This document shows, one piece after another, positions 23,766-26,692 of a stretch of DNA of 64,000 nt. This stretch comes from Streptomyces agglomeratus (lineage in GTDB: Bacteria; Actinomycetota; Actinomycetes; Streptomycetales; Streptomycetaceae). The stretch's first letter is position 1, and the number at the start of each line of letters is the position of its first letter. A program made the position numbers and the translations under genes. The stretch is from the NCBI RefSeq assembly GCF_001746415.1, contig NZ_MEHJ01000001.1:2248501-2312500 (forward strand). The letters run 5' to 3'. Below the pieces are notes generated by a model, which saw only the letters and a list, made by a program, of their open reading frames with translations, did no database searches and was not told where the DNA came from.

Positions 23766-25490
23766 GTGGACCCGGTGATCGTCGTTGGGGCGGGTCCTGT
23801 CGGGCTGGCTCTTTCGCTGGCTCTCGCGGGCCACGGAGTTCCCTCCGTCCTGCTCGACGAGGGAGCGGGCAAGGACGAGCCCCGTACGGCCCGCACGGCT
23901 CTTCTGCGCGCCGACACGGCGGAACTGGCCGAGCGGCTCGGCTGCACGACTGTCCGTGACGAAGGGACGCGCTGGACCGGCTGGCGGTCGATGCGGCGCA
24001 ACCAGGACGTCCGGGAGATTCGTTTTGGCGAGGACGGGGACCTGCCCTCCCCCGTACATCTGCCGCAGCACGACCTGACACGGGGGCTGCGGGACGCCGT
24101 CATGGCGCACGAACTCGTTCAGATCGTGCCGCACGGGCGCCTCGACACCATCGAGCAGGACGCCGACGGCGTCACCGCACACACCCGCGAGCCCGGGGCC
24201 ACCTGGTGGCGCGGCAGCTTCCTGGTCGGCTGCGACGGGGCGAGGTCGACGGTGCGCAAGCTCCTCGACGTCCGCTTTCCGGGCCGTACGGCGGTCGAGC
24301 GGCACGCCGTCGCGGCGCTGCGTACGGAGCTTCCGTGGGACGGCGAAGCGTTGCTGCACCGGATGCCGCCGTGGCGGTCCGGCGGACAGGAAGTGACCGC
24401 GCGCCCGCTGCGGGACGGTGTGTGGCGGCTCGACTGGCTGCTGCCGCCGCGCGGTGAACTCGTCACGCCCGAGGGCCTGGTGGCGCGGGTGCGGGACACG
24501 CTGGCCGGATGGTGCGGGGAGACACCTCCGTACGAGCTTCTCGACACGGGCGTGTACACGCTGCACCACCGGCTGGCCCGCAAATGGCGGGTGGGCCGGG
24601 CGTTCCTCGCCGGGGACGCCGCCCACCTGCTCGGGGCGCTCGGGACGCAGGGCCTCGACGAGGGGCTGCGGGATGTCGACAACCTCGCCTGGAAGCTGGC
24701 GCAGGCGTGGCAACTGGGCGCCTCGGAGAAGCTGCTCGACAGTTACCAGGCGGAGCGGCGTGCGGCGGTCGCCGCGCGGCTGCGCGCCGCCGACCAGGCG
24801 CTGCCGGTGCTTCGGGGCAGCGGTCTGCGGACGTACCTTCCCGGCACCGGGCGCGGGCACGACACGCTGCTGACGGACGGGCATCTGGGACGGGGCGCGC
24901 TGGGGGCGCCCCCGGAGTACACGCGCTCTCCGCTCGCACCCCCGCACGCCGAGGCGCAGACGCTGGTGGGTACGCCCCTGGGCGGGCCGGTCGCGGACGT
25001 ACGGGTGACGGCGCCCGACGGAGCCACGGTACGGCTGCGGGACCGGCTGGGCCGGGGGCGGCAGCTGGTGGTACTGGTCGCGCCGGGGACCGGCGTGTGG
25101 GACCGGCGGCACTGGATGACCGCCGGGGTGATGCCCCGGCTGGCCGCCGCGGTGACGGCGCTGCCGGTGCGTGCCGAACTGCTGGTCACGGAGGGCTACC
25201 CGGGGGCGTCGGCGCACACCGTGCTGCTGGTACGGCCCGACGGGCATCTGGTCGCGGCGTTCCACGGGGTGCGGCCGGCCGAGCTGTACGCGGCCGCGGA
25301 CGCGGCTCGCGGAGGGGCGCCAGCGGCGGCGCGCACGGGGCCCGGCCGGCAGCGTTCCGGTGAGGCGGAGGGCTCGGCGACGTCTGCGGGCGCCGAGCGG
25401 TCCGACCGACCGGAACCTGATGAGCGTACTGAGCGTGCCGACCGTACCGGCCAGGCCGACCCGACCGACCGGACAGCGGACATCAATTGA
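23766..25490 (+). CDS. FAD-dependent aromatic monooxygenase (PHBH-like, FAD_binding_3)
   Basis: A 574-residue flavoprotein hydroxylase. It has the Rossmann motif VVGAGPVGLALSLALAGHG (~5-23), the DG motif FLVGCDGARSTVRKLL (~155), and the GD motif AFLAGDAAHLLGALGTQGLD (~280). A C-terminal thioredoxin-like domain resembles those of phenol/3-HPP hydroxylases and rifampicin-type monooxygenases. GTG 23766 has GGAGGGG upstream. The last ~60 residues are charged, low complexity and rich in Arg, Asp and Thr; they are probably disordered and unusual for the family. The substrate is unknown, and no catabolic or antibiotic cluster surrounds it. Confidence 0.85.
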   Translation: MDPVIVVGAGPVGLALSLALAGHGVPSVLLDEGAGKDEPRTARTALLRADTAELAERLGCTTVRDEGTRWTGWRSMRRNQDVREIRFGEDGDLPSPVHLPQHDLTRGLRDAVMAHELVQIVPHGRLDTIEQDADGVTAHTREPGATWWRGSFLVGCDGARSTVRKLLDVRFPGRTAVERHAVAALRTELPWDGEALLHRMPPWRSGGQEVTARPLRDGVWRLDWLLPPRGELVTPEGLVARVRDTLAGWCGETPPYELLDTGVYTLHHRLARKWRVGRAFLAGDAAHLLGALGTQGLDEGLRDVDNLAWKLAQAWQLGASEKLLDSYQAERRAAVAARLRAADQALPVLRGSGLRTYLPGTGRGHDTLLTDGHLGRGALGAPPEYTRSPLAPPHAEAQTLVGTPLGGPVADVRVTAPDGATVRLRDRLGRGRQLVVLVAPGTGVWDRRHWMTAGVMPRLAAAVTALPVRAELLVTEGYPGASAHTVLLVRPDGHLVAAFHGVRPAELYAAADAARGGAPAAARTGPGRQRSGEAEGSATSAGAERSDRPEPDERTERADRTGQADPTDRTADIN

Positions 25491-25522
25491 CCGTCACAGG
25501 TGTGCGTGGTGTACTCCGGAGC

Positions 25523-25609
25523 GTGACCGACACCGATGTGCGCCTGTGGCGGAGGGTCCATATGGACCTCGTCCGCTATGCGGGCTGCGTGTGTCGTCCG
25601 TCCTGCTGA
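25523..25609 (+). CDS. Cys-rich leader peptide upstream of cysteine dioxygenase
   Basis: A 28-codon ORF, GTG at 25523 with CCGGAG before it, stop at 25607-25609. The peptide contains VRLWRRVHMDLVRY and ends GCVCRPSC, so three cysteines lie in its last seven residues. This matches the short actinomycete 'putative leader peptide' pattern found before sulfur-metabolism genes. It sits 85 bp before the cysteine dioxygenase start. By analogy with Cys-responsive leader ORFs described in mycobacteria, ribosome stalling at the Cys codons could sense Cys-tRNA supply. That regulatory role is inferred. Confidence 0.75.
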   Translation: MTDTDVRLWRRVHMDLVRYAGCVCRPSC

Positions 25610-25694
25610 TTCGCCCTTTCTTCTCGCGCGCTGTGCCGTGCCCTGCTGTGCGTCCGGCCGCGCGTTCTCGCGCAATCTTTCAGGACGGTCCTCT

Positions 25695-26300
25695 GTGTCT
25701 CTTCCCGTACGTTCCACTGGCGCGCCCGCAAGCGCTCCCCGGAACGCTCCGACTCCTCCCTCCCGCTCGTCCGCTCCTTCGTCCGCTCCCTCATCCGCTC
25801 CCCGGCCTGCTCCCTCGCCTGCGGAGCTGCTCGCGTTCGTGCGCCGTACCGCGGCTGATGCTTCCCTGGTGGCTTCCCTTCCGCTCGACCCGGAAGGCCG
25901 TACGTGGGTACGGCTCGAAGGGCCCGGCGGGAGCGAGGCGTGGCTGATCGGCTGGCCGCCCGGCACCGGTACCGGCTGGCACGACCACGGTGGCTCGCAC
26001 GGTGCCTTCGCCGCAGCGGCGGGCACACTGCGGGAGGAGTCGCTGGCGGCGCGCATCCCCACGGAGGGCTGGAAGACCCTCGAAGTGGCCGACGGGCTCG
26101 ACCGGGAGCAGCGGCTGACGGCCGGCCGGGGACGGGCCTTCGGCGCGCACCACGTGCACCAGGTGCTGAACGAGTCGGCGGACGATCACGCCGTCTCGGT
26201 GCACGCCTACTACCCGCCACTGCCGATGATGCGGCGCTACAGCCGCACGGGTGCGGTGCTACGTCTGGAGCAGGTCGAGCGTCCGGAGGAGTGGCAGTGA
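25695..26300 (+). CDS. Cysteine dioxygenase, type I (cupin)
   Basis: A 201-residue non-heme iron enzyme oxidising cysteine to cysteine sulfinate. The three iron ligands are visible: WHDHGGSHG (His ~95 and ~97) and HHVHQ (~152-155). A Ser/Ala/Pro-rich N-terminus (~40 residues) precedes the cupin. GTG 25695 is chosen, preceded by AGGAC; earlier in-frame codons run into the leader-peptide region. The stop overlaps the rhodanese start (GTGA), so the two are translationally coupled. Likely role: removal of excess cysteine, fitting the Cys-rich leader upstream. Confidence 0.9.
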   Translation: MSLPVRSTGAPASAPRNAPTPPSRSSAPSSAPSSAPRPAPSPAELLAFVRRTAADASLVASLPLDPEGRTWVRLEGPGGSEAWLIGWPPGTGTGWHDHGGSHGAFAAAAGTLREESLAARIPTEGWKTLEVADGLDREQRLTAGRGRAFGAHHVHQVLNESADDHAVSVHAYYPPLPMMRRYSRTGAVLRLEQVERPEEWQ

Positions 26301-26692
26301 GCGGCGAACGTATCGGCATCGACGAACTGTTGGAGCGGGTGCGCGAAGGGCTCGACCGGATCGGGCCGCAGGAGGCGTACGACGCCGCCGGGGCCGGTGC
26401 GCTGCTGGTGGACATCCGGTACGCCGCGCTGCGCGAGCGGGACGGGCTGATTCCGGGGGCACTGGTCGTCGAGCGCAACGAGTTGGAGTGGCGGCTCGAT
26501 CCCCAGGGCAGTCACCGGGCTCCGGAGGCCACGGATCACGATCTGCGCGTCGTGGTGATCTGCAATGAGGGATACGCGTCGAGCCTCGCCGCGGTGTCCC
26601 TGCGGCAGTTGGGGCTGCACCGGGCGACGGACCTCGACGGTGGGTTCCAGGCATGGCGGGCGGCGGGCCTGCCGGTGGTTCCTGCTCCGTAA
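26297..26692 (+). CDS. Rhodanese-like sulfurtransferase
   Basis: A 131-residue single rhodanese domain. The active-site loop CNEGYASS (Cys ~89) and the CDC25/rhodanese ends LLVDIR and LDGGFQAWRAAGLPV are clear. It starts at GTG 26297, overlapping the cysteine dioxygenase stop by 4 bp. It probably handles sulfane sulfur in the same cysteine-sulfur pathway. It is followed by a perfect hairpin. Confidence 0.92.
   Translation: MSGERIGIDELLERVREGLDRIGPQEAYDAAGAGALLVDIRYAALRERDGLIPGALVVERNELEWRLDPQGSHRAPEATDHDLRVVVICNEGYASSLAAVSLRQLGLHRATDLDGGFQAWRAAGLPVVPAP

Follow-up and report, generated by a model that had tools for sequence, protein, structure and literature searches.

A Streptomyces leader ORF whose last codons can pair with the SD sequence of a thiol dioxygenase gene: a candidate cysteine-responsive attenuator

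Our analysis of a 64,000-nucleotide window of Streptomyces agglomeratus DNA indicates that the last codons of a short leader ORF (CCGUCCUG) are complementary to the SD sequence (CAGGACGG) of the dioxygenase gene that follows it. This complementarity, a candidate lock on the dioxygenase, is new. Leaders of this kind are already known: ours is probably one of the actinobacterial cysteine attenuators, leaderless and acting in cis, and the individual case is open to study. On balance, though without great confidence, we lean towards reading the whole arrangement as a leaderless Cys-codon attenuator in which this pairing, P2, forms the lock and cysteine limitation is the ON signal.

The leader (VTDTDVRLWRRVHMDLVRYAGCVCRPSC; 25523..25609, all features being on the forward, or +, strand) has a GTG start and 28 codons, and the window sequence leaves 85 nt between its end and the GTG of the dioxygenase at 25695; the initial annotation had proposed this 28-codon ORF with its Cys codons, and both coordinates and gap hold. 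With NCBIfam NF042934, a cis_reg_atten family named "putative leader peptide", it scores 37.1 bits against a curated cut-off of 27. The similarity to the Ms5788A leader family (NF042933) is partial, the profile score of 18.3 bits lying below the cut-off of 45, so that the leader is not a member. Of 304 relatives we took the best 80, and in these the leader stands before the dioxygenase at 79 of the 80 named loci, the sole leader-less locus (L022) beginning at a contig end, and 163 of the 197 genomes sampled in the order match the leader profile; together with the NF042934 score these counts go far beyond chance. In the class, the profile is matched by 36 of 394 genomes, 33 of them of the same genus and 3 weakly. 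There were no Rfam matches at E ≤ 1 within 25300-25900, and a literature search found nothing on a leader before cysteine dioxygenase, which is not proof that no such report exists.

The leader and the dioxygenase also occur together. A close dioxygenase (at least 145.5 bits) is present in 20 of 20 leader-positive Streptomyces tested, and 19 of 20 leader-negative Streptomyces (20 of 34 negatives tested) carry distant paralogues only (at most 76.4 bits). In the exception, G183 (locus L213), the leader is gone along with the N-terminal half of the dioxygenase, the missing part falling between the upstream gene and the remainder of the dioxygenase. A different remnant is seen in G122 (locus L165), where an altered leader is retained with no dioxygenase behind it and the downstream sequence reads as the end of a rhodanese; here the leader core HMDLV has become HSDLI and the palindrome in the leader, discussed below, is broken. 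Our search motif, in which the peptide core and the initial nucleotides are fixed, picked up 171 of the 172 loci scanned, L022 alone failing to match. Two of these are without a dioxygenase, L115 at a contig end and L165 with the gene deleted, and the remaining 169 reduce to 161 unique loci.

Cysteine-responsive attenuators carry Cys codons close to the end of their ORF, and alignment across Streptomyces finds both the ORF and these codons conserved before orthologous dioxygenases. The first of them, the TGC of Cys12 (25586..25588), is conserved in 160 of 161 loci (TGC 147, TGT 13, CGC 1), and Cys14 (25592..25594) is TGT in 161 of 161. The terminal Cys that gave the initial annotation its title is indeed present, yet at 144 of 161 it is less well conserved than the other two, and the invariant codon is the UGU at 25592-25594. 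In the Cys codons of 201 high-GC3 ORFs, UGU is the less used synonym (73 UGU to 254 UGC, or 22%). The homologous codon is nevertheless UGU in 23 of 23 parsed loci of the wider family (22 of 45 were unparsed), in 22 of 22 parsed loci of a second family set whose loci are partly shared with the first (4 of 26 unparsed), and in 30 of 30 parsed loci of other genera. Since the less used synonym is kept over so many genera, the sequences point to decoding of this UGU codon as the sensor.

Where would the leader transcript start? A predicted -35 element, TTGACC (25487..25492), shares bases with the stop codon of the preceding frame, and a predicted -10 element, TGTACT (25510..25515), preceded by a TGG extension, ends 7 nt upstream of the leader start codon; both are consensus readings. 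Across the 161 unique loci TTGACC occupies positions -36 to -31 and TGTACT positions -13 to -8, with a conserved 17-nt spacing, and the column frequencies are T99 T82 G80 A83 C94 C85% for the -35 and T92 G56 T78 A89 C87 T89% for the -10 element. A generic sigma-70 scan, which demands A at position 2, returned no promoters in 25400-25900. The leader had been credited with its own ribosome site, and this is not supported: the GGAG in question, only 1 nt away from the GTG, is unconserved (its fourth base is G in 29% of the 161 loci), and what is conserved instead is the promoter 7 nt upstream. The natural reading of a conserved promoter ending so close to the GTG, combined with an unconserved GGAG, is that the leader mRNA is probably leaderless. 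A leaderless start is reported for several leader peptides in S. lividans (PMC8079986).

RNAalifold, run on 152 sequences after 9 of the 161 rows had been set aside, yields two main helices, P1 and P2, and both are contained in the fold computed for the locus in this genome (-79 kcal/mol, z -2.98, with 1 of 200 shuffles doing as well). The first, P1, forms a 13-bp hairpin in codons W to Y (25547..25578; TGGCGGAGGGTCC ATAT GGACCT cg TCCGCTA). In 155 rows, third positions at its paired sites (six degenerate codons) are off consensus in 19 of 930 cells, and at unpaired sites of the region (three codons) in 152 of 465. The paired columns are nearly invariant, with a two-sided exchange in one row (L025), so that covariation is not shown for P1 in these 155 rows; the motif used for selecting loci fixes part of the P1 core, but this cost only L022 of the 172. 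We also considered P1 as a DNA operator, GGTCCATATGGACC being perfectly palindromic. Yet most of the variation is concentrated in the loop and the bulge of the RNA and leaves the paired sites alone, a pattern that fits RNA pairing better than a DNA site. The fold of this locus further pairs CGACAC (25528-25533, codons 2-4) with GUGUCG (25591-25596), across the UGU codon.

P2 joins the anti-SD sequence CCGTCCTG, its 5' arm in the leader codons for P, S and C (25598..25605), to its 3' arm, the dioxygenase SD sequence (25681..25688). Of the 161 unique loci, 138 have a Watson-Crick run of at least 6 pairs and 109 have one of at least 8. By comparison, the longest such run among 20 sibling leaders of other genes is 5, none of the 20 reaching 6. 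When the two arms are slid against each other over 155 rows (L220, L225, L161 and L090 having been set aside along with 2 duplicates), 95.6% of cells are paired in register versus 26-51% out of it; all eight positions are paired in 111 of these rows and one to three are mismatched in the other 44. Covariation within Streptomyces is weak, with column shuffles giving a mean of 95.0% and a maximum of 95.3% against the 95.6% observed, because both arms hardly vary. Where they do vary, GGAACGG occurs in 3 of 7 leaders with CCTTCC (L232, L146 and L158) and in no other row, and L162 and L164 have gained CAGGACC(T) directly upstream of the SD sequence.

Outside Streptomyces the picture is mixed. Our survey of 30 loci in nine other genera found compensating changes, GGCCGUCCCG/UGGGACGGUU in 3 loci and GCCGUCCUG/CAGGACGGC and CCCGUCCG/CGGACGGG in 1 each. 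P2 is retained in genus g156 (2 of 2 loci), g153 (3 of 3, with C-G for U-A), g148 (1 of 1), g146 (1 of 1) and g6 (1 of 2, the CCCGUCCG/CGGACGGG pair). Genus g2 has a 7-nt match after the leader stop in 3 of 7 loci, and the 6 loci of g151 and g154 have a weak P2 or none. For the 8 loci of g147, our SD rule found none in 7, and the other has a 4-pair run. Because P2 is weak or absent in related genera, and because the modelled effect of the leader is inconsistent in g2, g151 and g154, P2 is not how this leader works in general.

The modelled effect concerns how a ribosome on the leader changes the exposure of the SD sequence. Over 156 rows (5 of the 161 having been set aside), the SD sequence is open with a mean probability of 0.045 when no ribosome is present; a ribosome at Cys12 raises this to 0.146, one at UGU14 to 0.271 and one at the stop codon to 0.279. 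In the window's own genome the corresponding values are 0.002, 0.026, 0.357 and 0.372. The sequence of the leader matters, since shuffled leaders leave the SD sequence open at 0.231 versus 0.050 for the real ones, which were lower in 38 of 40 cases. The outcome depends on the assumed footprint: UGU exceeds Cys12 in 33, 41 and 20 of 50 rows for footprints of +12, +15 and +18 nt, and falls below it in 8 of 50 at +18, and a Cys12 stall leaves the SD sequence mostly shut unless the footprint extends to +18 nt. In this model, then, a ribosome at the leader end would open the lock, a stall at UGU would hold it open and a stall at Cys12 would mostly leave it shut. In the computed folds, such breaking of an SD-hiding structure by a stalled ribosome is seen for Streptomyces and for some closely related genera, not for all: the folds of g2, g151 and g154 give no consistent leader effect on the SD sequence, and L293 has P2 yet shows no such effect in the model. 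The geometry alone leaves the regulatory sign unsettled. The wider distance from UGU to the anti-SD sequence in g2 was considered as support for induction by cysteine and dropped, the leader having no clear effect on the SD sequence in the g2 folds.

What do related leaders precede? We examined six others in this genome, five above the family cut-off and one below it (a further 12 matches score lower), standing before a ThiS-like protein with a cysteine-synthase-like frame, a sulfite reductase, an FMN reductase, a two-domain rhodanese, an SDF symporter (the leader below the cut-off) and a sulfatase, all of them genes of sulfur acquisition or cysteine synthesis, or plausibly so. Further siblings (L177, L178, L180, L179, L182, L183, L192 and L175) precede what appear, with names given by eye, to be a carbonic anhydrase, flavin reductases, LLM-type monooxygenases and an ABC substrate-binding protein.

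Published expression data offer a second view. From its annotation and its synteny beside recX-recA we take SCO5772 of S. coelicolor to be the orthologue of our dioxygenase. It is annotated as a putative cysteine dioxygenase in PMC3087709. PMC4991794 reports RNA-seq of S. coelicolor under H2O2, with 28 genes up at M of at least 1.5, of which by our own count 16 are ssu, cys and met genes and their neighbours. SCO5772, tabulated there as hypothetical, is up 8.00-fold alongside ssu, cysNDCHI, cysA and cysM genes, and metI and metN rise together with the cys genes. The authors of PMC4991794 attribute the H2O2 response to SenR, and their qRT-PCR covered two genes other than SCO5772. The S. lividans leader metL, before metNIQ, is called methionine-dependent in PMC8079986; it ends in GARCMCRRMCAF, with three Cys. 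According to PMC3087709, Sven_5427, the homologue of SCO5772, rises more than 5-fold on nitrogen starvation in a GlnR-dependent manner, so the dioxygenase may have a second input besides cysteine.

How could such a leader regulate the genes behind it? As long as the leader is untranslated, CCGUCCUG would pair with CAGGACGG and the dioxygenase and rhodanese would be poorly translated, an effect that we infer from the computed complementarity and accessibility. When charged Cys-tRNA is short, a ribosome would pause on the invariant UGU, which lies 6 nt upstream of the anti-SD sequence, its footprint would cover the latter, and the SD sequence would open for translation of the operon. The operon would thus join a cysteine-limitation group to which the leader-linked genes for sulfite reductase, CysO-CysM and SseA, among others, would also belong, as the co-induction of SCO5772 suggests but does not prove. 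With the SD sequence shut, C-rich untranslated RNA may also invite Rho.

The initial annotation had anticipated regulation in cis through the mRNA fold or Rho access before the dioxygenase start. For the fold, P2 is now a candidate; Rho is plausible as a second layer, given the C-rich spacer and early gene. Could Rho instead be the main layer, with leader ribosomes altering its access to this stretch whether or not P2 forms? The possible loading zone (25610..25790) is C-rich and G-poor in base composition, with mean C of 0.46 in the spacer and 0.50 in the early coding part and mean G of 0.25 and 0.24; C exceeds G in 158 of 158 spacers and in 161 of 161 first-90-nt coding stretches, versus 81 of 156 in the dioxygenase core. 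Moreover, our scan found no intrinsic-terminator-like site in 25400-25900, and the leader is kept even in genera without a clear P2. However, N-termini rich in alanine, proline and serine make the RNA C-rich by themselves, and the conserved anti-SD and SD sequences better fit translation control in this clade. Termination by Rho as the main layer is a possibility, but a somewhat doubtful one.

The sign of the regulation is a separate matter. The initial annotation read the leader as a device for cysteine-induced breakdown, opposite in sign to leaders before cysteine-making genes: with ample Cys-tRNA, ribosomes would pass Cys12, reach the leader end and open P2, and starvation would stall them at Cys12 with P2 shut. 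The modelled openings are in keeping with this, the SD sequence being less open from Cys12 than from UGU or the stop codon, as is the near-invariance of Cys12, and the annotated activity of the dioxygenase does destroy cysteine. But the gap between the two stalls narrows with the +18 footprint, and the codon that is invariant is UGU rather than Cys12. Furthermore, the targets of the six siblings examined, the position of UGU in the model and the 8-fold rise of SCO5772 with the cysteine-synthesis genes (PMC4991794) point the other way, so that we think the earlier sign unlikely. Induction by cysteine shortage is favoured because of the sibling targets, the SCO5772 co-induction, the UGU geometry and the mycobacterial precedent described below; against it, the RNA-seq condition was H2O2 and not cysteine starvation.

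Two further readings seem quite improbable. One is an arrest of the TnaC type, in which the conserved nascent chain WRRVHMDLVRYAGCVC would halt the ribosome in response to a thiol rather than to Cys-tRNA supply; the motif H-[VILM]-D-L-x-R is indeed common to many family members despite differing surrounding RNA, but P1 can also explain much of the leader's conservation, and an invariant, less used synonymous codon argues for decoding. The other, equally hard to credit, is that the leader merely couples translation, with a constitutively open SD sequence and nothing sensed, which agrees with the opening of P2 by a ribosome at the leader end in the model, but not with an invariant UGU or with a family that often precedes sulfur genes.

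If limitation of cysteine is the ON signal, it would be odd for a cysteine-destroying enzyme to be made just when cysteine is short. The gene (25695..26300, GTG start) belongs to the cysteine dioxygenase type I family of thiol dioxygenases, with a PF05995 match (E 1.4e-44) whose score of 152.1 bits passes the gathering score of 23, and it is followed by a single-domain rhodanese (26297..26692; PF00581, E 3.4e-14) whose start overlaps the dioxygenase stop in GTGA, which confirms the coupled operon of the initial annotation. Searched against solved chains, a profile of the leader-linked enzyme scores 58.9 bits with the 8qfl set, which we take to be an ergothioneine dioxygenase, 33.5 with 9t7v ("Cysteine dioxygenase type 1") and 23.5 with 4qm8 ("Cysteine dioxygenase"), type 1 cysteine dioxygenases thus reaching at most 33.5 bits. 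Another Streptomyces dioxygenase is about equally close to the 8qfl chains and the type 1 cysteine dioxygenases (42.1 and 37.4 bits). As the leader-linked enzyme is closer to the 8qfl chains than to type 1 cysteine dioxygenases, these scores make a salvage role on a thiol other than cysteine possible. We propose, tentatively and knowing that it may well prove wrong, that the leader-linked "cysteine dioxygenase" of Streptomyces is a sulfur-salvage thiol dioxygenase rather than a cysteine-disposal enzyme, turned on together with the cysteine-making operons through a shared UGU codon sensor and locked by an anti-SD sequence within the leader's own last codons.

Several known systems are comparable. 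Within NF042934, the leader shares its motif and Cys codon position with siblings before sulfite reductase, CysO-CysM, SseA and others, but it precedes a thiol dioxygenase and has an anti-SD sequence absent in the 20 siblings measured; the P1 hairpin may be a further difference. The gene tnaC encodes a leader peptide before the catabolic tryptophanase operon, with C-rich RNA after it; our leader likewise stands before an enzyme annotated as catabolic with C-rich RNA behind, although its sign appears to be opposite. The polycysteine leaderless short ORFs of mycobacteria, treated by Canestrari et al. in 2020, are reportedly cysteine-responsive attenuators. Our leader resembles them in its predicted leaderless start, in having Cys codons towards its end, in a fold able to hide the downstream SD sequence and in an association with sulfur genes. 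The mycobacterial leaders, however, have a run of Cys codons, whereas here the Cys codons are separated and UGU is invariant, the anti-SD sequence is the leader's own last codons and the target is a thiol dioxygenase.

More generally, our analysis would extend cysteine attenuation by short ORFs, as reported in mycobacteria, to a set of sulfur genes in Streptomyces that has one invariant synonymous codon. An enzyme annotated as destroying cysteine appears to be co-regulated with cysteine synthesis, which calls its annotation into question and poses a contradiction that can be tested, for a gene that most of the sampled Streptomyces carry.
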